In this document: positions 1-30,108 of the stretch, one piece after another
Position numbering within the stretch: position 1 is the first letter of the stretch
Layout: every line of letters starts with the position of its first letter
The notes under the pieces: generated by a model
What the model was told of the DNA's origin: nothing
Databases searched by the model: none
Seen by the model: the letters and a program-made list of their open reading frames with translations, nothing else
Source: a virus
IMG/VR virus record: IMGVR_UViG_3300021960_000015
Coordinates: 1-30,108 of that record
Direction: 5' to 3' (one strand)
DNA length: 30,108 bases
Translations under genes and position numbers: made by a program

Positions 1-127
1 TTATTGCTTTTGATTGAGCAAACCTGCTTCGCGTGGATTGCCAGCACTCGCTGTGTCTTTCCCTCAGTAGTTTAGAAAGACAAAGATTGCCAATCGTCAC
101 GCCTCAAAATCCTTGTACAATCGGCTT
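1..127. repeat. Terminal direct repeat, copy 1 (assembly closure)
   Basis: Bases 1-127 are identical to 29982-30108. An exact 127-base overlap at both contig ends is the usual sign of a circular assembly graph, so the true unit is about 29,981 bp. The repeat includes the last codons of the dCTP deaminase gene (stop at 97). The gap before the next minus-strand gene is 133 nt across the junction (96-1 and 29981-29945). That gap holds a weak inverted repeat, AGGCGA/TCGCCT, without a T-run, and no gene that I can support. Confidence 0.95.
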
Positions 128-3072: not shown

Positions 3073-3684
3073 TTAGTTTTCAAGAGGTTTAACTCCATTT
3101 ACTTGGATTGTGAAGTTGTTGAAAATGGCTCCAAAAAGCTCGCTTGGCTCAATTGCAAAATTAAGCGTTTCGTAGCCTTTGTTCTGTGCCGCTATAAGCT
3201 GATTTTCTCTCTGCAACCACTTGTCTTTGTACTTCTCCCAAACAATTTGAAGTGGTCCTACTGGCAGCATATATATTAAGCCAAGTCCTTTGACGTAATA
3301 GGCAATGTAATCTGCAAGCAAAGGCTTGCACACCCATCCTGGGCTATTTCTTCGATTGTTGCTTACATACTCAAGAAGTATGTCTGTGTAGACTCTGCCG
3401 CTTTTGCTTGGGTAGCGTATCTTTTCATCAATCACATAATTCTTGCCACCGTCACAAATTACTTGTCGATCTCCACCTAGCCTTTGAAAATCAGAATCCT
3501 GCTGAAAATAAACAGAGCATTTAAAGTTTGGGAAAAACTTTTTATAGGCTTCTTCCCAAACAGGTAACTCACTGTCTAAATGTGAGTCGTTCAGTTGTTT
3601 ATAAAAATCGTTCACTGGCTCAGTAACTGATACCTGATAGTCTAAAAACAGGTCTAATTGATTTGGTTGCCCCACTGGCTCCAA
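3073..3684 (-). CDS. PD-(D/E)XK-like protein, putative nuclease
   Basis: 203 aa, no named family recognised with certainty. Residues about 68-110 carry LGGDRQVICDGG, then YVIDEKIRYP and TDILLEYVSN. The spaced D...DEK...E pattern on predicted beta strands resembles the PD-(D/E)XK restriction-endonuclease fold. I recall the DEKxR...DILLEY pattern in unannotated phage proteins. It starts 31 nt inside the MT-A70 methyltransferase gene and is followed by bet. It could be the cutting half of a restriction-modification-like pair, an exonuclease feeding Bet, or something else. The nuclease call is inference from motif spacing and neighbours. Confidence 0.45.
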   Translation of the reverse strand: MEPVGQPNQLDLFLDYQVSVTEPVNDFYKQLNDSHLDSELPVWEEAYKKFFPNFKCSVYFQQDSDFQRLGGDRQVICDGGKNYVIDEKIRYPSKSGRVYTDILLEYVSNNRRNSPGWVCKPLLADYIAYYVKGLGLIYMLPVGPLQIVWEKYKDKWLQRENQLIAAQNKGYETLNFAIEPSELFGAIFNNFTIQVNGVKPLEN

Positions 3685-4622
3685 CCTTCTCTTGCAGTCC
3701 TAGCAAAGAGTTCAAGTTTCTTTGCTTCTGAAAAAGCCGAATCAATCCACTCCATGAATTCAACAGGCTTTGCGCTATGCTTTGTTCTTGAGTAGCTAAA
3801 AATAGAAGAGTGTCTGTGGTCTGGCTCTGGTGGTGAAAAGTTGCCTTTGGTTGCGACAAACAGAAGCTCATGTTGTCCACGAAACCAGTAGCCCATTCCT
3901 ATTTTCTGCTTGTCCCAAATCGCATGGGTTTTGTAGGTCAATCCCCACGCATCAATTACCATGAAAGCCTCTCGTAACTTTGGCGCAGTTGCCCATAGCA
4001 AAAGCAAACTGTCGGCAGCAAAAGGTATTTGCATTGCACAGATTTCATCAATCTTCATGGTTGGGTAGTGATTCGCCAAATCTCTGCTTTGAGTTTCTGC
4101 AAAATCATAATCCCAAGGTGGATCTGCATAGACTAGGTTGAACTCTCCTTCTGGAAGAACTGTCTTGGGTAACTCGGCATGTTCTGCCTTTTTCTTTTGC
4201 AGTTGAAAATCTTTGGATTCTCGCAGCATTAGGGCTTGAGTAAGTTCCTTTTTTTCTTCTTTGGTTTCTTCAATTACTTCTTCAAAAATTACCTCCGGCA
4301 AGTCAGCAATCTGTTGCCAACGTTGAGATTGTAATCTATGAATTCCTAAGTCTTTAAGTTTTGGTGTAATAGGCTCACCATGTGCCAATTCTTTTTTAGG
4401 TCTACCTGTTTTAGCTCTTTCCATTTCTTTCAGCAATTCGCCACCTTTGCGCTCGGCTCGTAGCTTCGTTTCTGCGGCTTGGTTCTGCATTTCCAAAGAA
4501 TAACCAGCGGCCTTCACATAAGCCTTTATCGCTTCCGCTTGGTCTCGTATTTCCTTGATTTCTTGCAGTGTCGAAGCTTCTTCTAAAGCTCTTCTAGCTG
4601 CGTCTAGTTTAACGAGTTGCAT
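3654..4622 (-). CDS. MT-A70 family DNA N6-adenine methyltransferase
   Basis: 322 aa. Residues about 160-315 are an MT-A70 domain: NLVYADPPWDYDF with the DPPW catalytic motif at 167-170, then LLLLWATAPKLREA, GYWFRGQHELLFVATKG and the closing ELFARTAREGWSQWGNQ. Residues 1-150 form a charged, mostly helical region (AARRALEEASTLQEIKEIRDQAEAIK is its start), which often precedes this domain in phages. Transfer of methyl from SAM to adenine N6 in phage or host DNA is expected. It may protect DNA from host restriction or tune gene expression. It follows a 129-nt hairpin-bearing gap and overlaps the nuclease-like gene by 31 nt. Confidence 0.9.
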   Translation of the reverse strand: MQLVKLDAARRALEEASTLQEIKEIRDQAEAIKAYVKAAGYSLEMQNQAAETKLRAERKGGELLKEMERAKTGRPKKELAHGEPITPKLKDLGIHRLQSQRWQQIADLPEVIFEEVIEETKEEKKELTQALMLRESKDFQLQKKKAEHAELPKTVLPEGEFNLVYADPPWDYDFAETQSRDLANHYPTMKIDEICAMQIPFAADSLLLLWATAPKLREAFMVIDAWGLTYKTHAIWDKQKIGMGYWFRGQHELLFVATKGNFSPPEPDHRHSSIFSYSRTKHSAKPVEFMEWIDSAFSEAKKLELFARTAREGWSQWGNQIN

Positions 4623-6709: not shown

Positions 6710-7345
6710 ATGCTCAGATCGGTTTCAAAAAGGTTTAGCGAGAGAGTCGTTGAACAAAGAAGTGCTATGGGAATGTCTCAAGCAGATTTAGCCAAAGCGT
6801 TAGAGGTTTCTCAAAACACTGTCAGCAAGCTTGAAAGAAATCGGACAAGGATTGATACCGATAAAATTGAAAAACTTTGTGAGGTTCTAGGTCTTGACGT
6901 ATCGGAAGCGTTGACGCCTGACCAAGTGAAAAAACCAGAATCCAAGGAAGGCTACCGAACGATTCCAGAATATGACGTCCGAGTTTCTGCTGGGCATGGC
7001 GAGTTCCAAGGCATTGAACAAGTGAAGCAAAATCTTCAAATGCCCAAAATGTTTCTTCCTGAAAATGGACAAGTGGGGTTCGTCAGAGTCGAAGGCGATT
7101 CCATGACGCCAACAATCGCTCATGGTGATTATGTGGCTGTTGAGTTCGATTCTGGCTACACCAGTGACGGTTTGTATCTGATAAGGATTGATGATGCGGT
7201 TTTTGTAAAGAGGCTTCAGAGGAAGTTTGGAGGTGTGAGAATCATTTCAGACAATCAGCAATATGAAGAAATGAACGTTTCACCCGATGATGGAAACGAC
7301 TTTGGCTTGATTGGAAGAGTGGCTTTGGTCATTCGGAAAACTTAA
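6710..7345 (+). CDS. CI-type repressor with S24 self-cleavage domain
   Basis: 211 aa. Residues about 8-65 are an XRE-type helix-turn-helix (MSQADLAKALEVSQNTVSKLE). The C-terminal half is a LexA/CI S24 peptidase domain: Ser131 in GDSM and Lys167 in AVFVKRL form the catalytic dyad, and Ala94-Gly95 in VSAGHG is the probable self-cleavage site. It should therefore be inactivated by RecA on DNA damage, giving SOS induction. It sits opposite the early operon and ahead of integrase, as in lambda-like immunity regions. No Shine-Dalgarno sequence is visible before the ATG. Some of the start could be off by a few codons (other ATGs at residues 20 and 22). Confidence 0.93.
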   Translation: MLRSVSKRFSERVVEQRSAMGMSQADLAKALEVSQNTVSKLERNRTRIDTDKIEKLCEVLGLDVSEALTPDQVKKPESKEGYRTIPEYDVRVSAGHGEFQGIEQVKQNLQMPKMFLPENGQVGFVRVEGDSMTPTIAHGDYVAVEFDSGYTSDGLYLIRIDDAVFVKRLQRKFGGVRIISDNQQYEEMNVSPDDGNDFGLIGRVALVIRKT

Positions 7346-7359
7346 ACAACACTTCAACT

Positions 7360-7378
7360 GTTTAAATGTCGTTTAAAT
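7360..7378. promoter_or_regulatory. Paired GTTTAAAT half-sites between repressor and integrase
   Basis: GTTTAAAT occurs at 7360-7367 and 7371-7378, 11 bp start to start, in the 80-nt gap between repressor and integrase. The core matches the arms of the main operator (GTTTAAA). A second pair, TTGATCT twice, follows just before the integrase start. The first pair could bind the repressor and control integrase; this is inference. Confidence 0.35.
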
Positions 7379-7425
7379 CTTTTCGGAGTATTTAAGTCAA
7401 TTGATCTCAATGTTGATCTAATTCA

Positions 7426-8607
7426 ATGAGCCACAAAAACGAGATTGTTTCAGACAAACGCCAACAGGCTTTTGTTGGTCAGTTGTGGATTGAGAAAAAA
7501 CGCTACCGTCGAGTCCTGGCGCGATTTGCTGAAGTTGAGGACTTGCCAGAAGAGCAACTGAATTCTTTGCTTGTCGAGCGGTTGCTGCAACTCAAGAAGA
7601 AGCTGACGCGAGAGGTTGAAGCCTCTACAGATAAAGACGGTTTGTTTTTCTCGGAAGTCCTGCGGTTGTTTCTCGCCCATGTGGAAGCCAATCGTGATAA
7701 GTTGACGGTTCGCCAGTATCGGCAGCAGCTCAGTCGTTATCAAAAAATCGTTGGCGATTATCGGATTCGGCTTCATTCGTCCAAGTTCACAGACCAACTT
7801 GTTTTATCATTAAGAAGAGCCGGATTAGGCGATCATAGTTGTAATTCATACCTTCGAGCAGTTCGCGCAATCCTTAATTGGAGCTGGGAGCAAGGCTTTC
7901 TTCCGGCTGCGATTAAAGTCAAATCGGTTCGCTCATCCAAGCCTTTGCCTTCGGTCTTCACTCAAGAACAACTCGAAGACTTGCGGCAACACCTAGAAGA
8001 AGGCTGGCAGGAAACCAAACGAAGACGATTTCTGGTGCTTCTCAGGACGTTCTGGTTTCTTCGCTATACTGGCATGAGAGGTGGCGAACTGTTGCACCTC
8101 GAGTGGCGTTTTGTCTATGCGGATAGGATTGAACTTCGCTCAAGTCGAGAATGGAAGATTAAAGGTAGGCGTGATTCAGTTCTGCCGATTGCGGTTAGGC
8201 TTCAGGAATTTATTCAGTCGCAGGATATTCAAGGCGAGCGTTATGTGCTGGACAACGGCAGAGGTAAGCCGCTTTATAGTTCGCTTGGGGATTTGACCAA
8301 GAGTATGCGAAAAGCTTTGTTGAAGTGTGGCATTGAAAACGCGAAACCGTTGCATAGTTTCAGAAGTACGGTTGCAACGGAATTGTTGGCTGGTGAGAAT
8401 TCAAATCCGGTTCAGGTGCAAAAACTATTGCGTCATCAGTCGATTCAAACAACCATGAGTTATTTGAACACTGACCATTTGCAGCAAGTTGATTTGGTGA
8501 ATCAACTCGGAAACACTGGCGGAAACACTGGCAAGAAAAAATCTGAAGAATCCAGCAAGGCTAGTATTCGTCTAGCCTATAGCCGAAAGTCTAAAGCTGA
8601 CTGTTAA
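7426..8607 (+). CDS. int: Tyrosine recombinase, phage integrase
   Basis: 393 aa. It catalyses recombination between attP and the host attB. The N-terminal part (about 72-160) is a SAM-like core-binding domain. The catalytic domain shows Arg218 (YTGMRGGE), a likely Lys at 244 or 246, His310 and Arg313 (LHSFR), His337 (LLRHQS) and the nucleophile Tyr346 (MSYLNTD). Length is normal. The C-terminus (GNTGGNTGKKK onward) is a basic tail encoded partly by a 12-bp tandem repeat. The gene's last codons and stop lie in the attP core, so integration puts host tRNA sequence next to its 3' end. No Shine-Dalgarno sequence is visible before the ATG. Confidence 0.95.
   Translation: MSHKNEIVSDKRQQAFVGQLWIEKKRYRRVLARFAEVEDLPEEQLNSLLVERLLQLKKKLTREVEASTDKDGLFFSEVLRLFLAHVEANRDKLTVRQYRQQLSRYQKIVGDYRIRLHSSKFTDQLVLSLRRAGLGDHSCNSYLRAVRAILNWSWEQGFLPAAIKVKSVRSSKPLPSVFTQEQLEDLRQHLEEGWQETKRRRFLVLLRTFWFLRYTGMRGGELLHLEWRFVYADRIELRSSREWKIKGRRDSVLPIAVRLQEFIQSQDIQGERYVLDNGRGKPLYSSLGDLTKSMRKALLKCGIENAKPLHSFRSTVATELLAGENSNPVQVQKLLRHQSIQTTMSYLNTDHLQQVDLVNQLGNTGGNTGKKKSEESSKASIRLAYSRKSKADC
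8509..8578. repeat. Short repeats at the integrase 3' end, near attP
   Basis: GGAAACACTGGC is repeated in tandem (8509-8520, 8521-8532). It is followed by a perfect 7-bp inverted repeat AGGCTAG / CTAGCCT with a 7-nt loop (8558-8564, 8572-8578). They lie 20-90 bp from the attP core, where arm-type integrase or Xis sites are often found. They may equally reflect only coding sequence. Confidence 0.3.
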
Positions 8608-8645
8608 TCATTGGGTCGCTGGTTCGAGTCCAGCTTGGGGAGCCA
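8598..8645 (+). other. attP: attP core: 3' half of tRNA-Asn(GTT)
   Basis: The segment matches a tRNA from the anticodon stem onward: loop CTGTTAA (8601-8607, anticodon GTT at 8603-8605), stem TCATT, variable loop GGGTC, T-arm GCTGG-TTCGAGT-CCAGC (8618-8634), acceptor strand TTGGGGA, discriminator G and CCA (8643-8645). The loop and G73 are those of tRNA-Asn. Only three pairs of the anticodon stem can form (8598-8600 with 8608-8610), which marks the left edge of host identity. Integration would rebuild the host tRNA with this phage copy. It is not a complete tRNA gene because no 5' half is present. Confidence 0.9.
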
Positions 8646-8680
8646 CTTCCAGCCGAAAAACCAGACTGTTTCAAAGTGGC
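8642..8680. terminator. Weak terminator-like inverted repeat between convergent genes
   Basis: GCCACTT (8642-8648) and AAGTGGC (8674-8680) form a 7-bp stem with a 25-nt loop, followed on plus by GGTTTTG. It lies between the convergent integrase and late operon. The T-run is poor, so termination is only possible, not shown. The left arm overlaps the tRNA CCA end. Confidence 0.3.
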
Positions 8681-8688
8681 GGTTTTGA

Positions 8689-8847
8689 CTATCCGCCAGT
8701 GATTGCCTCTTTCAGCTTCTTTGCCTTCCTGACTTTTCTATAAATTCCTACTCCAGCCGCTGCCATCGGCAGCCCGATTGCCGTTAATACTAGCTCAACG
8801 CCACCGGATTCAACAGCAGAATTAAAATATTCAAAAAAGATTTCCAT
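8689..8847 (-). CDS. Small one-helix membrane protein, holin candidate
   Basis: 52 aa. The ATG at 8847 follows directly on the endolysin stop (8848-8850). One hydrophobic segment (VELVLTAIGLPMAAAGVGIY, residues about 17-36) is followed by a strongly basic tail (RKVRKAKKLK). A small single-span protein with a charged tail beside an endolysin suggests a holin or antiholin. It is the last gene of the late operon, before attP. The function is inferred from topology and position only. Confidence 0.6.
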   Translation of the reverse strand: MEIFFEYFNSAVESGGVELVLTAIGLPMAAAGVGIYRKVRKAKKLKEAITGG

Positions 8848-9237
8848 TTAATAGCTCCAAATCATTAAACCGTCTTCTCTATCGTCTACATGCAGAAATC
8901 TTTGACTTCCTGTGAAACTGAAGCCATACCCACCGAACAAGCCCATCTGAATTCCAATTTCTAAGAGTCTTGCTCCATCGGCATTCCAGCAAGCAATATC
9001 CACTGCTCGACCTAATACATGATAACCTGTTGATTTTGGCTTCCCGTCTTTCCATTTAGCTTTTTCAACCGGATGCTCTGGCGAGCGATACGCTGAAGTC
9101 AGTCTGATAGGTTTGCCGTAATGCTGCCGCAAGGTTTCAAGCTTCGTCAGAAACAAATCTGACATTTCACACTCACCTGTGAATTTACACTTCAGCTCGT
9201 CCCTCGAAAAATGCTCAGAGTGGTCAATAAATTCCAT
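8848..9237 (-). CDS. Endolysin, M15-type peptidase
   Basis: 129 aa. It is a peptidoglycan peptidase of the M15 (DD-carboxypeptidase-like, M15A/M15_3) group. Motifs are RLTSAYRSPEHP at 45-56, then STGYHVLGRAVDI with zinc ligands His73 and Asp80, and FLHVDD with His116. It should cut cell-wall peptide cross-links at lysis. It has no signal peptide, so a holin is expected; candidates flank it. The start shares bases with the upstream stop (TAATG). Length is normal for single-domain phage M15 lysins. Confidence 0.92.
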   Translation of the reverse strand: MEFIDHSEHFSRDELKCKFTGECEMSDLFLTKLETLRQHYGKPIRLTSAYRSPEHPVEKAKWKDGKPKSTGYHVLGRAVDIACWNADGARLLEIGIQMGLFGGYGFSFTGSQRFLHVDDREDGLMIWSY

Positions 9238-17530: not shown

Positions 17531-17964
17531 AGGATTTCACTCGGTGTTCCGCTTGTCTGGCGATAGATAATCAGGTAGTCCATCGCAATCATTCCAACAG
17601 GTTTTTCGCCTTCTGTTGAAATGTTGATTTCTACATTCTGTAAGACTAATTCTTCGACACTCGCTGGGCTTGTTTCGTTTAGTGCCGCTTCGACTTCTCC
17701 TCCGATAGTGTCCAAAGTGTCGTCTAAATTGCTGGTTGCTTCGGCAACGCCTTCGACTCTTAGATTAAGATTTCTTACTAGGCTCTTTCCATCCGTCATT
17801 GCAGACCGTTCAACGGTTTCCGCGAGTGTGTAAATGAGCAGACACGGCAAATCTGTCTGGGCCAGCCTATGAAACCTCGTTTGATAAACTCTGCTGGCTG
17901 TCGTCGAAAGTCCGGTGAGTGTGGTTGCAACCGCTTCTCGAATCGTTTGACGAGCGTGAGCCAT
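17527..17964 (-). CDS. Tail terminator protein (gpU-like)
   Basis: 145 aa. RQTIREAVATTLTGLSTT, then RLAQTDLPCLLIYTLAE and LNLRVEGVAEA follow the pattern of tail terminator/minor tail U proteins, which cap the tail tube as a hexamer and join it to the head. It lies between the head-tail joining protein and tail tube, the expected site. The ATG overlaps the upstream stop (TGATG-type). Length is typical. Confidence 0.82.
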   Translation of the reverse strand: MAHARQTIREAVATTLTGLSTTASRVYQTRFHRLAQTDLPCLLIYTLAETVERSAMTDGKSLVRNLNLRVEGVAEATSNLDDTLDTIGGEVEAALNETSPASVEELVLQNVEINISTEGEKPVGMIAMDYLIIYRQTSGTPSEIL

Positions 17965-18266
17965 CAGATTCTTTCCATGACTAGCGTCGTCATACCTAAA
18001 TTGTCCGGCTCAATGCCTCGCACCACATAGCCGATTGACTGAATCGTTAGAGCGTCACCATGCGCCAAGCTGGAAACATCACTGGTTCTTGCCATCAGTC
18101 GAGGTTCTGCCGACTCAAGCCCAATCGTCAGTCCATTTGGTTGAATCAAGGTGAAGCGTAAATCCCAGATTCCGCTGAAGGTGCTGGCGTCTGCCTTAAT
18201 GACGGTTACGCCAAAATCTGCGGTATCTAAATAAATTGCTCTGTCAGTATCGGTTTCAATCGCCAT
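17964..18266 (-). CDS. Head-tail joining protein (gpFII-like)
   Basis: 100 aa. MARTSDVSSLAHGDALTI near 58-75, then YVVRGIEPDNLGMTTLVME, is the typical C-terminal motif of FII-like head-tail attachment proteins, which form the last ring of the neck. It overlaps the LpxA-like gene by 11 nt and is coupled to the tail terminator. It marks the resumption of standard virion genes after the sugar/acyl-type cluster. Confidence 0.82.
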   Translation of the reverse strand: MAIETDTDRAIYLDTADFGVTVIKADASTFSGIWDLRFTLIQPNGLTIGLESAEPRLMARTSDVSSLAHGDALTIQSIGYVVRGIEPDNLGMTTLVMERI

Positions 18267-18867
18267 CGAGTATGTACCAAAAACGTTCAGTTTCTTTGAT
18301 GAGGTATTCGTTGGATACCTTATTGCGACTCAAGCCAATCACATTCTCACCAGCCGCTCGCGCTGGATTTCCGGCAAAGATTTTTCCAGGTGTGATTCTA
18401 CATTTCACGCCAACCACTGAATTCATACCAATCATGGAAAAACTGCCAATCAGCGAATATTGGTGAACTGTTGCCCCCAGCCCAATCGTTGCGCCTCGCA
18501 TGACGTAGCTATGTCCGCCTAGCTGCACCGCATTGGCAAGCGTCACGTTGTCCTCAATCACTGAGTCATGGCTAACATGCGAGTAGTTCATTAAATAACA
18601 GTCTTTGCCAATTCTGGTTTTGTTTTCGGTTCCGGCATGAATCGTTGCAAATTCTCGAATCGTGGTGTTGTCACTAATCTCAACTCCACAAAGTTTTGGC
18701 CTTGTCCTGTGCTGTGGCGTATCACCGATTGAAACATGCCCGTGAATTCGGACGTTGTCTCCAATCTCAGCAGGCCCGTAGATTATTGTGTAAGGGCCAA
18801 TAAAAACGTTTTTGCCAAAGTGGACATTTCCCTCAATGATTGCCGTTTTATCGATTTGTACTACCAC
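18256..18867 (-). CDS. LpxA-like left-handed beta-helix acyltransferase
   Basis: 203 aa, starting at GTG. Hexapeptide repeats run through most of the protein. Specific matches to LpxA (UDP-GlcNAc O-acyltransferase) include IGPYTIIYGPAEIGDNVRIH, IGDTPQH, IREFATIHAGT and SHVSHDS, with His100 at the catalytic position, and a GATVHQYSLIGSFSMIG stretch. LpxA acylates UDP-GlcNAc at the first lipid A step. This protein is about 60 residues shorter, keeping only the start of the C-terminal helical domain, so a different sugar nucleotide or acceptor is likely. It overlaps both neighbours by 7-11 nt inside the virion operon. The acyltransferase fold is secure; the substrate is unknown. Confidence 0.88.
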   Translation of the reverse strand: MVVQIDKTAIIEGNVHFGKNVFIGPYTIIYGPAEIGDNVRIHGHVSIGDTPQHRTRPKLCGVEISDNTTIREFATIHAGTENKTRIGKDCYLMNYSHVSHDSVIEDNVTLANAVQLGGHSYVMRGATIGLGATVHQYSLIGSFSMIGMNSVVGVKCRITPGKIFAGNPARAAGENVIGLSRNKVSNEYLIKETERFWYILDGD

Positions 18868-19523
18868 TCAGCGAGTAAATCTGTGTGAACAAAAGGCGGT
18901 TTTGGATTGCCATGAAAGTAAACAATTGAGGCTTCTTCTCGTCTTTCCGGCTCTTTGAGCCAGTGGCACTTGTAGGACTGAATCTGGTTAGGAAAAACCT
19001 CATTCAATCGGGTTGCGTCATTGGCTAGTAATCGCAAAAACTGCATTTCTGAGATTCTTCCGTTGTACAAAATTCGCTCACCGTATTTTTCTTTTCTCTG
19101 CCACTCGTAAAAAATGAAATCGCAGAATTCAGGTGAGTAGCTTCCAACCCCATTGCAAATCGTTTCAGGATAGTTTGGATCTGTAAGAAGCCCGACTCTG
19201 CCGCGCCAATTTAGAATCTCGTCAATATTGTCTTTAATGATCGTGTCGAGCCCAAGAACAAAACGTTGATTTTCTCCCAAGTCCGGCCTGAAGGTTTCCA
19301 TGACATTCCCATAACCGGATTCATTACCTTCAATCTGAACTTGATCAACCTCTTCTTGAAATTCGTAAAACTCATCAACTAAACAAATCAGTCTATATTT
19401 TTGTGTCGTATGTCTTGCAATCGCTTGTGCTAATTTGTCCACCCAGATTGCCGAATATCCTTGGGAAAACTTGGGTAATCCCTTGCCTTCCGGCTTAAAT
19501 AAAATGCAGACAATGTCAATCAT
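18861..19523 (-). CDS. Phage glycosyltransferase-like protein
   Basis: 220 aa. The opening MIDIVCILFKPEGKG, then YSAIWVDKLAQAIARH, LICLVDEFYE and METFRPD with VLGLDTIIKDNIDEIL, and the closing ASIVYFHGNPKPPF follow the layout of a family of small glycosyltransferase-like proteins found in phages and prophages. The LGLDT segment takes the place of the metal-binding acidic motif (only one Asp here, so activity is not certain). It overlaps the small gene upstream by 8 nt and the LpxA-like gene by 7 nt. It probably transfers a sugar to a virion or host-surface acceptor, which is inference. Confidence 0.7.
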   Translation of the reverse strand: MIDIVCILFKPEGKGLPKFSQGYSAIWVDKLAQAIARHTTQKYRLICLVDEFYEFQEEVDQVQIEGNESGYGNVMETFRPDLGENQRFVLGLDTIIKDNIDEILNWRGRVGLLTDPNYPETICNGVGSYSPEFCDFIFYEWQRKEKYGERILYNGRISEMQFLRLLANDATRLNEVFPNQIQSYKCHWLKEPERREEASIVYFHGNPKPPFVHTDLLAEW

Positions 19524-19752
19524 CTGGCTCAGTCTTCTTCGGCTTTCTGGCTGGCTTGCGCTTTACCAATTTTGGTTGGCTTTCGCTCGTTAAGCCCACG
19601 CTGCGATCAATCAGCGGCTCTTTCTCTTCGTAGGGAATCGCCTTGCCTAATCGCATGATTTCGCGAGCTGCATCCACCGTCACAGAAACGATTTGGCCCG
19701 CTTTTACAACTTTTCCGTCTGCTACTGTGCTTCTTAGAATTTGTACCTTCAT
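19516..19752 (-). CDS. Small phage protein, unknown
   Basis: 78 aa. MKVQILRSTVADGKVVKAGQ, then VDAAREIMRLGKAIP, is a pattern common in short unannotated proteins of head-gene regions (a small SH3-like or RHH-like fold is possible). The C-terminus is a Lys/Pro-rich tail (KPARKPKKTEPDD). It overlaps the DUF115-like gene by 4 nt and the glycosyltransferase-like gene by 8 nt. Function unknown; perhaps a head decoration or connector part. Confidence 0.6.
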   Translation of the reverse strand: MKVQILRSTVADGKVVKAGQIVSVTVDAAREIMRLGKAIPYEEKEPLIDRSVGLTSESQPKLVKRKPARKPKKTEPDD

Positions 19753-20300
19753 CGAATCGCTCGCAGTAACTCGTTTAGTTCTGGATTAAAAGTCTTCACT
19801 CGTTTTGGATTTCTTAGTTTCTGAATGATTTCGCCCCAAGCAGATTTTCTTGGGTTTCGCTTGCCTTTCAAGGCTTGGTCATTTTCTGGCCTGACGTACT
19901 GGTGCCAGTAATCGCGCCTTGTGTTTTCGTAGTTATCCACGCCACACAACCAGATTTCTTTGTAGCCCATGTAATCGGCTGTCCAGAGTGCTTCTGGGCC
20001 GCTCAGTTGAACCCAAGGGCAAATTCCTGCGTAAATATCCTTTTCTTTTAAATTTTTAAATTGCGGAGAAACAATCGGGCATTGAATTCCAATGTCTTCT
20101 CTTAAAAACTGAATCATGCTTGGATCGTGAGCATACGCCCAAGCCAAGTCTGGCAAGAGCGCAGCATGTTGGTTAACAGAAATCCAATGTGCGCTCTTCC
20201 AGTTGCTTTGACGAACGTCAGCAGGCGCAGAAGGTGAGCCGCAAATCAAAAGTGCGGTTTCCCCTCTGCACCAATCCTTCAGTTCATCTAAATGAAACAC
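19749..20300 (-). CDS. DUF115/MptE-like protein
   Basis: 183 aa, starting at GTG directly after the capsid gene stop. LLICGSPSAPADVRQSNWKS resembles the glycine-rich loop of the DUF115/MptE-like Rossmann fold. WISVNQHAALLPDLAWAYAH and a GYKEIWLCGVDNYEN segment follow the same family pattern. Relatives include pterin pyrophosphokinases and the Maf proteins of flagellin glycosylation. With the glycosyltransferase-like and LpxA-like genes downstream, a sugar-handling role is plausible. The family call is moderately sure; the reaction is unknown. Confidence 0.6.
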   Translation of the reverse strand: MFHLDELKDWCRGETALLICGSPSAPADVRQSNWKSAHWISVNQHAALLPDLAWAYAHDPSMIQFLREDIGIQCPIVSPQFKNLKEKDIYAGICPWVQLSGPEALWTADYMGYKEIWLCGVDNYENTRRDYWHQYVRPENDQALKGKRNPRKSAWGEIIQKLRNPKRVKTFNPELNELLRAIR

Positions 20301-22892
20301 TCAGACAGTCACATCCTGTGCTGCTGAGAAGGATTCTGGTCTCGCTACAGCAACGTCCATCATTTGATAGAAGTAGAGGTTCACCGTAGAGGTTCCGGCT
20401 GCACCGTAAGGATCAACCAGAACATCTAGCGCACCAAAGAAGCCCAAATAAAGGTCGGTGAAATTCCCGAACAATAGGGCATATGGCGCTGAACTTGGCG
20501 CTTGGGTTGTCTGGACAACGGGATAGCCCAGCAATGAATCTGTATCCATCATAATCATTCTGGAATCCGTTGAACTCGCTACCAGTGTCTGCATCAGCTT
20601 GCCAACCACTCGCGGATGAGTCACCCAGTAGAGACTGCCCAGCAGAGCATTATCGGCTGCGACTTCGCTCCAGATGTCAACGCAGTTGCCATACGTCAGC
20701 GCAGCATTTCCAGAGGTTCCAGCGGATTCAACGTCACCGATTCCGGTAGTGCCTAACACTCCGGTAGGTTCATTTGAACCGCCACCTTTGATTGCGACAT
20801 TATCCAGTTTTGCCGCGAACAAGCGGATCATATGATCACGCAAAGTCTGCTCAATGTTGCCATTGAGTCCTTGGTGCAGAAGCTGTCGGCTAATCTGGAT
20901 TTTGTTTGCTGCCGTTTTTGGGCTCATGGTGATTTGTCCAAAGTCGGGCTCACCATTGGCAACTGATCCAGTTTCAGTCTGGAAAGTGACACTCGCATTC
21001 GCTGAAAACTTGGGGATTTGAACATCACCCACCAAACCTTCAAAGCGAGTTGCGCCAACTTGTCCCATGATAGACGTTGAAATCAACGCATCAATGAAAC
21101 GGTCTGCTAGGAAATTATCCGCTACCGCTTTATCGCCAAAACCAGAACCGCTTGAACCTGTTACTCCGGTTAGCGTTCGAGATTGGAAGCCGTGGTCTGG
21201 AATATAGAAGCCTCTTGGCTCTTTTCCGGTTCGGCTCGCAATTTCGCGTGAAATCTCGCGCTCAAATCCAGCGTTTGACCAATCGTTGTTAGCTGCGGCT
21301 TGGATTGCTCGCACTAAAGAGTAATTTTGCTTCTCTTTCTTCGTCAGTTCCGGCTGAACGACATGCGGATTTGTTCGCACTTCGTCGCTTAACTCTTCAG
21401 CAAACTGCAAGTATGGCTTGCCTTCTCGAATGGCTCGCTCTGCAAAGTCAGATTTTCCGAATCCTTCAGCCAAAGAGCGGATTTTGTTTTGTTCATTCAG
21501 CATCTGCTGACGCACAGATTTTTCATCAATTACTGGAACAGGTTCTTTAGTGACCTGCACATTTACGCCTTCCATTTCCATTTTTTCTTCCTTTTTTGTA
21601 GGTAAAATACTTCTTCCTACGCCCACACCTTTATCGGCTGGAACGCTGACGATTGAAATTTCCTGTGGATACCAAGAATTCACTCGAAAGATTCCTCTAC
21701 CGTCGATTTCCTCTTCAGTAGGTGTCATCCCTTTGACTGAATACCCCACAGAAACATTTGAGCGAATGCCATCTACAACATCCGCGAAGACCTCTTCAGC
21801 CAGTGCGCTTCTTCCGAATCGTACTGTCGCCCGTGCTATTCCAGCCGTGCTATCCAGGTCTACCCTTTCGACAACGCCAATCTGCTGGCGCATATCGTGA
21901 TCTAAAAGAAGAGGCATTCTGCCACTTCTCGCAAAACTCAAATCGATTTCGTCTTCACTATGGCCTAAAACCTCATAGCCAAATTCTCTTTCAACTGGGG
22001 ATTGTGAAGACCAAGCTAGTCTGACTCTTCTATCGTCTTTCTCTTTGTCGTAGTGCCAACCGCGCTCAACCTCACCCACCCGAAAGCTGAGAGGTTCGAC
22101 TGTGGCTTTTCTCTCTTCCTCTGCCATTTCCATTTCTTGCTCTTCTGCAACTTCTTCGGCTTTGGCCTTCGCGAAGGCAACGATGTACTCGTTTTCTGTT
22201 TCTTCGACTTCCAAAATGTGTCTAGTTGCTAAATCTTGTCCGTCCATTTCTCTTCCTTTGCTGCTCATGGGGTGGCCTTCCGGTAGTAAATCCGTGTCAT
22301 GTTTTCCAGAACGGAACTTAAAATTTCTAAGGGCATATAAAAAAGAATTTACGCGAGCGTAAGCCCATTGTTCCGGTGAATTCACAGATGGGCGAACCGA
22401 TTGGGGATTGGTTTTGTAAGCTCCAACCCCTCGACGGAAAACGGTGGATAGTGTTCTGAAATTCGTACGTTTTCTTTCGTCATCCCCAACTTCGTCATTA
22501 TGTTCGCTAACTTTGTTTTTTAATCCTTCTTCTACTGCCCCAGTAATTTCAATTTCTGCACGGTTTTCTTTTTCTTTGTTGGCTTGCTCAACAATCTTGT
22601 TTGCCCAAGTTTTTCCAGCGTCACCACCCCAAAGTGCGTTTGCAATTCTGCCGTTTGACGGATAGCCTTTTTCTCCTGGTCTATAACCTTCGGCTTTTTT
22701 ATCAACCTCATGGCGAGCAAAAAAACTTTTCATTCTTTTGACGGTATCCAAAGAAAGGTTCTTTTCGTTAACAATGTCTCTGGCTCTCGCAACTCCAATC
22801 AGTGTCCCGCCACGCCCAAATTCTTTCCGCCATGCCAAGCCCTTTTTTGCCTCTTCGATCATGCCTTGAGTTGGCTTGTGTCCGTCACTCAT
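20301..22892 (-). CDS. Four-part head polyprotein: accessory domains, prohead protease, HK97-type major capsid protein
   Basis: 863 aa from the ATG at 22892 (an in-frame TTG at 22919 adds 9; numbers below use that longer form). Residues 15-112 are a KPTQGM...RKEFGRGGT...ARHEVDK...PGEKGYPSNGRI domain known to me only from other phage head proteins. Residues 178-222 are an AYARVNSFLYALRN...DLLPEGHP module. Residues 275-440 are a U35 (HK97 gp4-like) protease with His341 (LLLDHD) and Ser390 (RSNVSVGY). Residues about 480-570 are a charged, helical, scaffold-like (delta) region, and about 575-872 an HK97-fold capsid protein with QIPKFSANAS and ISRQLLHQG. Usual protease, about 200 aa, and capsid, about 400, are separate genes. 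Self-processing during head maturation is expected. Confidence 0.9.
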   Translation of the reverse strand: MSDGHKPTQGMIEEAKKGLAWRKEFGRGGTLIGVARARDIVNEKNLSLDTVKRMKSFFARHEVDKKAEGYRPGEKGYPSNGRIANALWGGDAGKTWANKIVEQANKEKENRAEIEITGAVEEGLKNKVSEHNDEVGDDERKRTNFRTLSTVFRRGVGAYKTNPQSVRPSVNSPEQWAYARVNSFLYALRNFKFRSGKHDTDLLPEGHPMSSKGREMDGQDLATRHILEVEETENEYIVAFAKAKAEEVAEEQEMEMAEEERKATVEPLSFRVGEVERGWHYDKEKDDRRVRLAWSSQSPVEREFGYEVLGHSEDEIDLSFARSGRMPLLLDHDMRQQIGVVERVDLDSTAGIARATVRFGRSALAEEVFADVVDGIRSNVSVGYSVKGMTPTEEEIDGRGIFRVNSWYPQEISIVSVPADKGVGVGRSILPTKKEEKMEMEGVNVQVTKEPVPVIDEKSVRQQMLNEQNKIRSLAEGFGKSDFAERAIREGKPYLQFAEELSDEVRTNPHVVQPELTKKEKQNYSLVRAIQAAANNDWSNAGFEREISREIASRTGKEPRGFYIPDHGFQSRTLTGVTGSSGSGFGDKAVADNFLADRFIDALISTSIMGQVGATRFEGLVGDVQIPKFSANASVTFQTETGSVANGEPDFGQITMSPKTAANKIQISRQLLHQGLNGNIEQTLRDHMIRLFAAKLDNVAIKGGGSNEPTGVLGTTGIGDVESAGTSGNAALTYGNCVDIWSEVAADNALLGSLYWVTHPRVVGKLMQTLVASSTDSRMIMMDTDSLLGYPVVQTTQAPSSAPYALLFGNFTDLYLGFFGALDVLVDPYGAAGTSTVNLYFYQMMDVAVARPESFSAAQDVTV

Positions 22893-24471
22893 CCGTCTGC
22901 TCTTGTTCGTTTTCAGCAATTTCGACTTGTGTCAAATCTAGGAAGAACGGCTGCTTCGGCCCCAGTGGTTTGAAGTGTCCCACTTCGATTCCGTAGCGTT
23001 CTGCCATTGCTACGTCCTGCTGAATCTGGCTGAATACTTCTTCTGGATCTCGCCCATACTGAAGTTGGACGTCAGAGAGAGACATGAAACCAGACTGAAC
23101 CGCTGCCGTGGCTGCGCTAATTTCTTTAGCAGGATCTACCCAAGCGAAACCTCGCCCTCTAAATTCAGCACTTGGAATAAACTTCGATTCTGCCTTTTCC
23201 ATTGACCAATCGAATGTCCCTCGCAGAACTTGGACTTTATGCCACTCGCGATAGATCGGTTTCGCTAGGTGAGTAATCAGAAACTTCTGAAGCATTCGGT
23301 AATGATCACGCTCTGAGATTGCGCCTTGGCGAATGCTCGAATAGTTCACGCCTGTTAGATCGTTGCTCAACTCGGCATAGCTAATGCCCAAGCCGGAAGC
23401 GATTGAACGTAAAACAGCAGAGTGAAAGTCTGGGAATGCAGTCGTTGGGTGGGTGGGATCCCAAGCTGAAAAAGACATTCCAGCCGGAAGCTGTTGAATG
23501 CTGCCTGGGCTTGCGTCCATGACGGGCTGATAATCGTCAATGGTGTCTTCCCCATCAAAACCGTCACCTTCTGGCGATTGAAGAAAGCCCATTTTGGCAG
23601 CGCCTAGCCTTGCGGCAACCACCTCGGCCTGAAGGTATCCTTGCAGTTGGTGCATGGATTCCATCACTGAAGCAAAAGCTGGAACGCCTCTGGTTTGCTG
23701 GCTTCTTTCGGGCAAATAAATGTGCAGAAGTTCTTCAGCCGGAATCCTTACGCGCCTCATGCCGTGGTGATAGCTTCCAACCGTGCCATAATTCAGCGGA
23801 TGGTCTGGCCCTTCAAAAAGGTGATACGCAACAGGTCGATGGAATCGGTTTAGTTCCACCCCCATGATGATTCTGTTTCCGTTCGAAAGCGTCGTGTCGT
23901 ATTGCTCGTCGAGATAATCGCCTTCAAGAATTTGAAGCCCAAAGCCAAAAGGCAAAGATTTGTCTCTGACTAGTTTGACTAAAACTTCACCGTCACGCTG
24001 AACCGATTCAATCACCAATTGTTGAACATCAATCCAACTGAGCTTTCCGCTAACCTCGCAGTTCCCAAGCTGGCTCCACTCTTTCCAAGCCCTTTCAATT
24101 CTGGCGTTTCCTACTTGATCCAATGGGCCTTGAGCGTTGTTCGGATCGGGCCTTCCGTTGACTAATGGAAGATTTCTGGCGCGGCTTTGAAAAGTCAGCC
24201 CTTCATGCCCGACAATCATCGTGCGGTAAACCTGCAACGCTCTTTTAGCGTAAGGATTATTTCTTGATAGCTGTCGGCTTCTGTCTCTTAGCCTACGGAT
24301 TGCGCCACGGATTTCAGTGTCTGCGGATGTGGCAGGAGAAAGAAAATCTGAAAGCAGAGAGGAAACTTGGTTACCCAAATAAGAGCGTTTGCGCTTTGGG
24401 GTTTCGGCTTTGTTTTGAGGCTTCGATTCTCTGCCGATTAGATCGGGAATTTCACCTTTGAAGGGCCACAT
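22885..24471 (-). CDS. Portal protein (lambda gpB family)
   Basis: 528 aa. It forms the dodecameric DNA entry ring of the head. Motifs of the lambda-type portal family are present: RDRSRQLSRNNPYAKRALQV near 62-81, then RDGEVLVKLVRD, LQILEGDYLDEQ, HIYLPERSQQTRGVPAFASV and a LTGVNYSSIRQGAISERD segment. Length is normal. It starts on the stop of the connector-like gene and overlaps the capsid polyprotein by 8 nt. The acidic C-terminus (EIAENEQEQTDE) is typical. Confidence 0.95.
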   Translation of the reverse strand: MWPFKGEIPDLIGRESKPQNKAETPKRKRSYLGNQVSSLLSDFLSPATSADTEIRGAIRRLRDRSRQLSRNNPYAKRALQVYRTMIVGHEGLTFQSRARNLPLVNGRPDPNNAQGPLDQVGNARIERAWKEWSQLGNCEVSGKLSWIDVQQLVIESVQRDGEVLVKLVRDKSLPFGFGLQILEGDYLDEQYDTTLSNGNRIIMGVELNRFHRPVAYHLFEGPDHPLNYGTVGSYHHGMRRVRIPAEELLHIYLPERSQQTRGVPAFASVMESMHQLQGYLQAEVVAARLGAAKMGFLQSPEGDGFDGEDTIDDYQPVMDASPGSIQQLPAGMSFSAWDPTHPTTAFPDFHSAVLRSIASGLGISYAELSNDLTGVNYSSIRQGAISERDHYRMLQKFLITHLAKPIYREWHKVQVLRGTFDWSMEKAESKFIPSAEFRGRGFAWVDPAKEISAATAAVQSGFMSLSDVQLQYGRDPEEVFSQIQQDVAMAERYGIEVGHFKPLGPKQPFFLDLTQVEIAENEQEQTDE

Positions 24472-27217: not shown

Positions 27218-27635
27218 GTTCTTCCAAGTTTGACTGACAAACCGCTTGATTGGTTTCCATTGCTAGAGTTGGGGCCAGCAAGGTTGGCAACGAAATCAGT
27301 TTGGCTTTAATAATCTCTGCAATGTTTTCAATTACCTTTGCATGGTCTTTTATTGCAATGGTTTCAAATTCTGCATTTGCTAATTCAATTTCAGCAAGCC
27401 TAGCTTCTGCCGCAATTTTTCGGGCTTTTGCGTCTTCAATATTTGGCGCAGTTGTTCCAATGCCGTCCAGCCTAGCTTGCAGATACTGAATATATGAAGT
27501 GACGCAACGGATGAGCGGATAACGTCCTCGCTCCGGCTTGGGAATAATTCCTTCTTTTGCCAACTGCTGAATTCTTCGATCTGTGACATTGCAGATTTTG
27601 GCAACCGCTGCCACTGGTGCGGTTTGTTCACTCAA
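27021..27635 (-). CDS. terS: Terminase small subunit (Nu1-like)
   Basis: 204 aa, starting at TTG with an AAGGAAAGG run directly upstream and a TTGA overlap with the methyltransferase stop. The N-terminal HTH (VAAVAKICNVTDRRIQQLAK, then EGIIPKPERGRYPL) matches Nu1-type DNA-recognition domains. Then KARKIAAEARLAEIELANAE is the usual oligomerisation helix. It recognises cos and loads TerL. The last 65 residues are encoded within terL and are basic and low-complexity (KATKSRSVSRARTV). Confidence 0.88.
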   Translation of the reverse strand: MSEQTAPVAAVAKICNVTDRRIQQLAKEGIIPKPERGRYPLIRCVTSYIQYLQARLDGIGTTAPNIEDAKARKIAAEARLAEIELANAEFETIAIKDHAKVIENIAEIIKAKLISLPTLLAPTLAMETNQAVCQSNLEEHVHATLGELARILSDNRERLEERAEGAKAISKALPTSSQTKHQPMGGSRKATKSRSVSRARTVAK

Positions 27636-28864
27636 CCTTTCCTCTCTGCTTCGACTTCCGCAAAGGTTTTGCCGCTACTTTCCAGAATCGCTTCCTTGCC
27701 TGTGAACTGCTGCCAACGCTTGACGGCAACGTCAACATAAGGCGGATGAAGTTCCATTGCGTAACAGACTCGACTGGTTGTTTCGGCTGCGATGATGGTT
27801 GTGCCGCTACCACTGAAAGGCTCATAAACCGCTTGCCCAGGTGATGAGTTGTTTTCAATCGGCTTTCTCATACACTCCACCGGCTTTTGTGTGCTGTGTC
27901 CGGTTTCAGATTTTCTGTGTTGAATCTGCCAAAGTGTTGTTTGTTTTCGGTCGCCTTGCCAATGTCCGTTTTTGTTATTTCGCACTGCATACCAACACGG
28001 TTCATGCTGATGATGATAATGCCCACGTCCAAATGTGTGTTGTGATTTTGCCCAAATTATCAAAGCCCGAATTGAAAAGTCTGAACCAGTCAAGCTATTG
28101 GCAACCGTTGCGCCATGAACACCAGCATGCCAAATGTAAGCAACCTCACCTGGAAACAAAGCCCATGCGTCTGACCAATCGGCTTTGTCGTCATTCATTA
28201 CAATGCCAGTTGCTCTTTTTGAATTTGGTCCGTCATTGTTTGCCCACTCTGCTGCTCTCCATGACGCGTCATAGCTCACTCCATAAGGTGGGTCTGTCAC
28301 CATCAGGTGCGGTTGAACGTTTTGCAGTAAATCCGCAACGTGTTCTGCGTTTGTGCTGTCTCCACAACGCAATCGGTGCTTGCCTAGAATCCAGAGGTCG
28401 CCTTCTAGCGTGATGGCTTCTTCTTCGACTTCTGGTGTTTCGTCTTCATCGGTCAAGCCGTCTTCGGTTCCTTCTGCCAGAAGTGCTTCGAGTTCGTCTT
28501 CATTGAATCCGGTTAGGTCTAGGCTAAAGCCTTCTTCGTCCAGCTCGCTGAGTTCAAGTTTCAGCAAGTCCATGTCCCATTCCGCCTCTTGCGCCACTCG
28601 GTTGTCAGCGAGTCGATAGGCTTTGATTTGTTGCGGTGAAAGGTCAGTCGCAATATGAACCGGAACTTGAGACAAGCCTAGCTTCTGAGCAGCCAGCAAT
28701 CTGGTGTGTCCTGCGATGATGACGCCTTCGGTGTCCACCACAATTGGCTGACGCCAGCCAAATTCCTTCAGTGAACCTGCAACTTTGGCGATTGCGCCTT
28801 CATTGCGCCTTGGATTGCGTGAATAGGGTATGGGCTTGGTAATGGGCCAGTTTTCAACTTTCAT
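27632..28864 (-). CDS. ParB-domain and N6/N4 DNA methyltransferase fusion
   Basis: 410 aa. Residues about 8-110 are a ParB/Srx-like domain: YSRNPRRNEGAI, then GWRQPIVVD, AGHTRLLAA (51-59) and KAYRLADNRVA. An acidic linker (about 105-150) follows. The methyltransferase has DPPYGV at 191-196, then STQKPVE and the SAM site FSGSGT at 350-355, so the motif order is that of the beta class. It probably methylates adenine or cytosine N4 in DNA. Methylation may protect phage DNA at packaging, since the gene is ATG/TTG-coupled to terS. It has no visible Shine-Dalgarno sequence. Confidence 0.9.
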   Translation of the reverse strand: MKVENWPITKPIPYSRNPRRNEGAIAKVAGSLKEFGWRQPIVVDTEGVIIAGHTRLLAAQKLGLSQVPVHIATDLSPQQIKAYRLADNRVAQEAEWDMDLLKLELSELDEEGFSLDLTGFNEDELEALLAEGTEDGLTDEDETPEVEEEAITLEGDLWILGKHRLRCGDSTNAEHVADLLQNVQPHLMVTDPPYGVSYDASWRAAEWANNDGPNSKRATGIVMNDDKADWSDAWALFPGEVAYIWHAGVHGATVANSLTGSDFSIRALIIWAKSQHTFGRGHYHHQHEPCWYAVRNNKNGHWQGDRKQTTLWQIQHRKSETGHSTQKPVECMRKPIENNSSPGQAVYEPFSGSGTTIIAAETTSRVCYAMELHPPYVDVAVKRWQQFTGKEAILESSGKTFAEVEAERKG

Positions 28865-29981: not shown

Positions 29982-30108
29982 TTATTGCTTTTGATTGAGC
30001 AAACCTGCTTCGCGTGGATTGCCAGCACTCGCTGTGTCTTTCCCTCAGTAGTTTAGAAAGACAAAGATTGCCAATCGTCACGCCTCAAAATCCTTGTACA
30101 ATCGGCTT
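29982..30108. repeat. Terminal direct repeat, copy 2
   Basis: Identical to 1-127. Bases 30078-30108 repeat the end of dcd and are not a second gene. Confidence 0.95.

Follow-up and report, generated by a model that had tools for sequence, protein, structure and literature searches.

Putative sugar- and acyl-transfer genes in the head-tail operon of a temperate siphophage: a conserved set that recurs behind phage capsid genes

Why should a small phage carry, between its capsid gene and a head-tail joining gene, proteins that resemble enzymes of sugar and acyl transfer? The question was addressed in a window of 30,108 nucleotides, i.e. the whole stretch of viral DNA analyzed (IMG/VR record IMGVR_UViG_3300021960_000015). 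The record was handled as a linear fragment, yet its ends form an exact 127-bp direct repeat, from which we conclude that the assembly is circular and complete, with a length of about 29,981 bp. The window phage is a temperate siphophage of about 30 kb: the genome contains a CI-like repressor and an integrase, which indicate the temperate lifestyle, a Bet/O-like/RusA replication block and a lambda-type head-tail operon. Among its closest cultured relatives by capsid are Roseobacter phages CRP-821/831 (about 45% identity), which are also circular and 30-31 kb long. No tRNA genes were found in the window genome. Nearly all ORFs of about 80 aa or more were scanned in this complete genome and no gene for sugar-nucleotide synthesis or base hypermodification was present, so any sugar donor must be host-derived. 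An MT-A70-type methyltransferase (3654-4622) and a ParB-like/DNA methyltransferase fusion (27632-28864) are probably anti-restriction functions. The features considered here are distributed as follows:

1-127, plus strand: left copy of the exact terminal direct repeat of 127 bp (copy 2 at 29982-30108)
17964-18266, minus strand: FII-like head-tail joining protein, downstream border (PF05354 E 4e-10; phrog_82 head closure Hc1 E 7e-12)
18256-18867, minus strand: LpxA-like hexapeptide acyltransferase, 203 aa (NF003657, PDB 8e62, residue map to E. coli LpxA)
18861-19523, minus strand: GT8/glycogenin-fold glycosyltransferase (GT), phrog_1962 family, GLDT/SEM subtype, 220 aa (phrog_1962, AF2 fold, motif alignment)
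19516-19752, minus strand: small head protein, 78 aa, phrog_829/phrog_2616-like (homologues in capsid slots and in CRP-831)
19749-20300, minus strand: DUF115/MptE-GT42-fold protein, 183 aa (AF2 model, fold matches, alignments)
20301-22919, minus strand: major capsid protein (MCP) gene, upstream border (PF05065 E 2e-32, PF04586 E 3e-5, phrog_617 E 2e-109)

The four genes that a sequence-only reading had placed between the capsid and FII-like genes are thus present as ORFs, and the spacing of 0-11 nt that it gave is exact: the MCP and DUF115-like genes abut (0 nt), and the junctions downstream overlap in turn by 4, 8, 7 and 11 nt. Predicted promoters in the region do not exceed the expectation from shuffled sequences (5 found, 7.7 expected). 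A promoter specific to the cassette was therefore rejected, and both observations agree with the proposal that these genes belong to the virion operon. The MCP ORF itself fuses an N-terminal domain (about 270 aa), an S78-type prohead protease and an HK97-type MCP; most of its length is common to Roseobacter phages and to Synechococcus phages S-CBS1/S-CBS3.

The small protein had been counted as a member of the set, which is not borne out by its distribution. Among 80 capsid relatives, 53 have a slot that reaches FII; the small gene was recognised in 45 of these 53 slots, and a DUF115 gene is missing from 46 of the 53. In the cultured phage CRP-831 the order is MCP-small-FII with nothing else in the slot, and its small protein fits a profile built from 47 small proteins and that of the window (E 3e-11). 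The small gene belongs to the core head genes (order MCP-small-FII) and not to the sugar set; since it occurs without the enzymes, the latter are insertions that flank it on both sides. A fusion of a small-protein domain to DUF115, suspected by eye in L146 and MW202621, was not supported by the small-protein profile.

The family of each enzyme was then considered. The LpxA-like protein is matched by NF003657 (E 1e-48, under the curated cut-off) and by PDB 8e62 (E 3e-30); its scores against the LpxA equivalog models NF003657 and TIGR01852 are below their cut-offs (165.6 versus 226 bits and 156.3 versus 231 bits, respectively). In the alignment it shares with LpxA the left-handed beta-helix of hexapeptide repeats, followed by the first C-terminal helix only, where it ends, so that most of the C-terminal helical domain is absent. 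It was predicted to keep the catalytic His while being shorter than LpxA, and this is indeed the case: His100 corresponds to LpxA His125 and Asp101 to Asp126, and the dyad is kept in all nine aligned relatives. The equivalents of Gly143, His160, Gln161, Asn198 and Arg204 (E. coli LpxA numbering) are also kept, i.e. the UDP-sugar contacts are retained, whereas E200 and R205 are lost and a Met occupies the position of Gly173. In LpxA this position is the ruler for acyl length, and Met leads to shorter chains. A distant LpxA-like protein lies in a large sugar cluster of another phage contig (L049, 1614-11672) together with Gfo/Idh, DegT aminotransferase, epimerase-, methyltransferase- and nucleotidyltransferase-like proteins; the vicinity of UDP-GlcNAc 3-dehydrogenase- and aminotransferase-like genes fits an amino-sugar substrate.

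Searching the PDB by sequence, we obtained no match to the DUF115-like protein, and those to the GT were weak and doubtful; fold comparison of AF2 models was used for this reason. The GT matches the phage GT family phrog_1962 (E 1.4e-28 over 201 residues), and its model (pLDDT 93.9) has a GT8 fold (GT-A, glycogenin-like) over its whole length, with a glycogenin match of Z 18.6 (196 residues, rmsd 2.6; Foldseek E 5e-9) at 15-18% identity. It differs from glycogenin/GT8 in its metal-binding motif: Gly91-Leu92-Asp93 stands where its relatives have DLD, so that the first Asp of DXD is missing, and the GDQ motif of these relatives is absent as well. In the motif alignment the whole GLDT subfamily has GLD where its relatives read DLD, and SEM where they read GDQ. 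Both GLD and FHGxPKP are kept across 19 sequence clusters whose identity falls to about 30%; such conservation makes decay unlikely, and with a dN/dS of about 0.1 the GT was rejected as a decayed pseudogene. The fold matches include the metal-independent GT-A enzyme 4ayl, which together with the conserved GLD makes altered metal use a reasonable guess.

For the DUF115-like protein the model (pLDDT 83.9) has a fold matched by SteA (VIA Z 11.6), by MjHPPK, an archaeal MptE-type HPPK (Z 10.6), and by the sialyltransferase CstII (Z 10.4); the match to 8sd5 (Z 10.6, 145 residues, rmsd 3.5) is that of a DUF115/MptE-like fold. The earlier label is therefore right at the level of fold, and for neither this protein nor the GT did the comparison reveal the fold of a structural protein. 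Identity to CstII/Cst-I (GT42) and to MptE-type HPPK (DUF115) is only 12-16%. Conserved positions in the alignments are GxPS, Asn43, Asp59, Ser100-Gly101, Gly120-x-Asp122, Tyr124 and His133. At the sequence level, a Pfam profile search gave no PF01973 (DUF115/MptE-like) match at E<=1, and relatives of the protein match this family weakly, under the cut-off. GT42 profiles are weak for the window protein (PF06002, CST-I, E 0.13; phrog_4603 E 0.013), and phrog_4603 matches its L146 relative at E 2e-6. With SteA, MptE-type HPPK and CstII tied at Z 10-12, the fold does not choose between sugar transfer and pyrophosphokinase activity; the protein is a candidate first glycosyltransferase.

To what extent do these genes form a set? 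Their order is intact in every contig spanning the stretch (at least 16), and the three enzyme genes are under purifying selection (dN/dS 0.05-0.15); both results indicate more than a chance assembly. GT sequences were clustered at 70% identity, which gave 19 GLDT-type and 43 DLD-type clusters. An LpxA-like or shorter hexapeptide gene is found nearby in 15 of the 19 GLDT clusters versus 3 of the 43 DLD clusters (Fisher 2.6e-8), and usually overlaps the GLDT-type GT gene by a few bases, so that this type of GT is tied to the acyltransferase. DUF115 genes accompany both types without preference (5/19 GLDT, 16/43 DLD clusters). The best natural experiment is provided by the lineage of contigs L281 and L203, which overlap over 2,346 bp with 89.8% nucleotide identity. 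The capsid tree places it as the sister group of the window clade and puts L084 outside the two; the full cassette is carried by the window clade and by L084. In L203 the order is portal, MCP, DUF115, small gene and FII, and GT and LpxA are absent from the slot; in L281 GT-LpxA precedes an HNH gene and then the terminase. As judged from these overlapping contigs, since no single one holds all three genes, the GT-LpxA pair probably moved before the terminase and yet stayed in the lineage. The genes thus travel together in relatives, as had been expected: GT and LpxA remain paired even when relocated.

Several other arrangements were noted. In L019 and L046 (contig 3300006870_000346), DUF115, small gene and GT resemble the window clade (92-97%) and FII and tail terminator resemble a second clade (84% and 59%), which likely reflects a recombination breakpoint around the cassette end. 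Contig L092 (3401-3880) retains only a partial LpxA-like match, preceded by the portal gene, a gene for 131 aa and a GT of the GLDT type, and followed by a low-complexity ORF; this may reflect a frameshift or a sequencing error. Many Rhodobacteraceae genomes (L153-L196) contain relatives of the GT that are of the DLD type, and neither a DUF115 nor an acyltransferase partner was detected close to them; most of these matches look like single chromosomal genes and were left aside.

Pairs of DUF115 and GT genes are found repeatedly in phages unrelated to that of the window; at least three further head types have them behind the capsid gene. The order is Gp13-like MCP (PF20036)-methyltransferase-GT-DUF115-small gene-connector in L142-L148, and phrog_10 MCP-DUF115-GT-connector in prophages of Aidingimonas and Onishia (Halomonadaceae) and of Alcanivorax; MW202621 has MCP-methyltransferase-DUF115, and L110 also has enzymes of these families directly behind the MCP gene. 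Within the capsid family of the window itself, L228 has MCP-DUF115-small-DLD-type GT-FkbM methyltransferase-FII; in this region (7202-9153) a methyltransferase replaces the LpxA-like acyltransferase as third enzyme, an exchange of tailoring enzymes. In L150, L151 and L111 enzymes of these families adjoin portal or terminase genes. These families are not confined to the vicinity of capsid genes: they occur elsewhere in T4-like phages, in the GT-LpxA pair before the terminase and in P1. In one late operon, as in the window, P1 has DUF115-like genes (PmgO, PmgP) and a phrog_1962-type GT (PmgQ), with a Ser/Thr phosphatase gene between them (pmgO, pmgP, ppp, pmgQ; L284, 4144-6702). The P1 set contains a DLD-type GT and no LpxA-like protein and is located by tail/baseplate genes, in contrast to the GLDT type, LpxA-like protein and capsid-side position of the window. 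PmgO/PmgP/PmgQ genes are nonessential in the laboratory and are called "putative morphogenetic" (PMC10695390).

Similar enzymes occupy the same place in unrelated phages, which suggests that a sugar decoration is probably built, with the phage's own particle as the likeliest site. We regard the cassette as a real, conserved and recurrent set of phage genes whose predicted task is glycan building; an action on sugars is well supported. The reading we prefer, to which we give an even chance, is that the three enzymes are a late-expressed set, produced alongside head and tail proteins and building an acylated sugar from host nucleotide sugars, with a virion protein as the most likely acceptor. 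The LpxA-like enzyme would acylate a host UDP-amino sugar with a short chain, the acylated sugar would be transferred by the GLDT-type GT8-fold enzyme, and the DUF115/GT42-fold enzyme would transfer another sugar, perhaps the first on the acceptor, the small gene between them being an ordinary head gene. Judging from gene linkage, the best supported step is that the LpxA-like enzyme and the GT would act in series, most simply with an acylated UDP-sugar as donor for the GT. The acceptor would be a virion protein assembling in the same cytosol, the capsid being the first candidate; late-operon placement, tight coupling without a promoter surplus and recurrence by capsid genes favour this. Against it we count the absence from the GT of the first Asp of DXD and of GDQ, the occurrence of the families away from capsid genes, and the DUF115 fold, which also covers pterin pyrophosphokinases and SteA. 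A Ser/Thr-rich capsid end was considered as acceptor and discarded: no clear one was seen at the MCP ends of cassette-bearing phages, and there was no clear difference.

The product had first been proposed to be an acylated sugar on either the virion or the host surface; the sugar/acyl-transfer set in a late operon stands, and of the two sites the virion is favoured over lysogenic conversion. The main rival, possible though rather unlikely, is that a glycan of the host surface (LPS or its lipid-linked precursor) is the target, either in the lysogen or late during infection, so that superinfection is blocked or progeny are kept from sticking to debris. Relatives of LpxA use UDP-GlcNAc in the making of lipid A, LOS enzymes occur among the GT8/GT42 relatives (CstII and LgtC are among the fold matches), the phage is temperate, and the LpxA-like gene of L049 accompanies amino-sugar genes as in amino-sugar lipid A/O-antigen pathways. 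However, overlap coupling in a late operon with no promoter surplus argues against expression in the lysogen, and the capsid-gene placement recurs across head types. We find it improbable that the GLDT-type GT is noncatalytic, with a binding or scaffold role, the DUF115-like and LpxA-like proteins being the only enzymes: the changes to GLD and SEM would allow it, but the altered motif is conserved across its clusters alongside FHGxPKP, selection is purifying and acyltransferase linkage tight, and a metal-independent enzyme shares the fold. Glycosylation of phage DNA (hypermodified bases) is highly improbable. Phages are known to have GTs that act on DNA (Pyle et al. 2024, as cited in PMC12619734), and two genes of the window phage are DNA methyltransferase-like; but the scanned ORFs of the complete genome include no gene for a hydroxymethylase, a TET-like protein or a base kinase, and an LpxA-like enzyme in a late head operon is a poor fit.

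For a virion acceptor, the closest precedents are mycobacteriophages Che8, Corndog and Myrna, where phage-encoded glycosyltransferases are described to decorate capsid and tail tube proteins (PMC12363180, PMC12619734, PMC11256854). In these systems the glycan is demonstrated whereas that of the window set is predicted, no LpxA-like or DUF115-like partner is mentioned in these accounts whereas the window has both, and the Maravista record describes the glycosylation genes as lying near the genome 3' end. In the literature searched we found no description of a GLDT-GT, LpxA-like and DUF115 set around a small head gene, and nothing relevant on a described LpxA-like phage protein, capsid-linked sialyltransferase-like genes or CstII residues. 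The claim that no such phage system is described consequently holds for function in that literature; it does not hold for the genes, P1 having a homologous DUF115+GT pair.

To our knowledge, protein glycosylation of phage particles has been demonstrated in few systems, mostly actinobacteriophages. A bolder version of the preferred reading, which we consider unlikely in its full form, is a dedicated phage pathway that would decorate the capsid with an N- or O-acylated sugar, the metal motif of the GLDT-GT having changed to use the acylated nucleotide sugar of its LpxA-like partner, and other phages swapping the acyltransferase for a methyltransferase in the same slot. If the acceptor is indeed on the virion, PmgO/PmgP/PmgQ of the model phage P1 would gain a function, and capsid-side glycosylation would be recurrent in phages of Gram-negative hosts, with exchangeable acyl and methyl tailoring enzymes.
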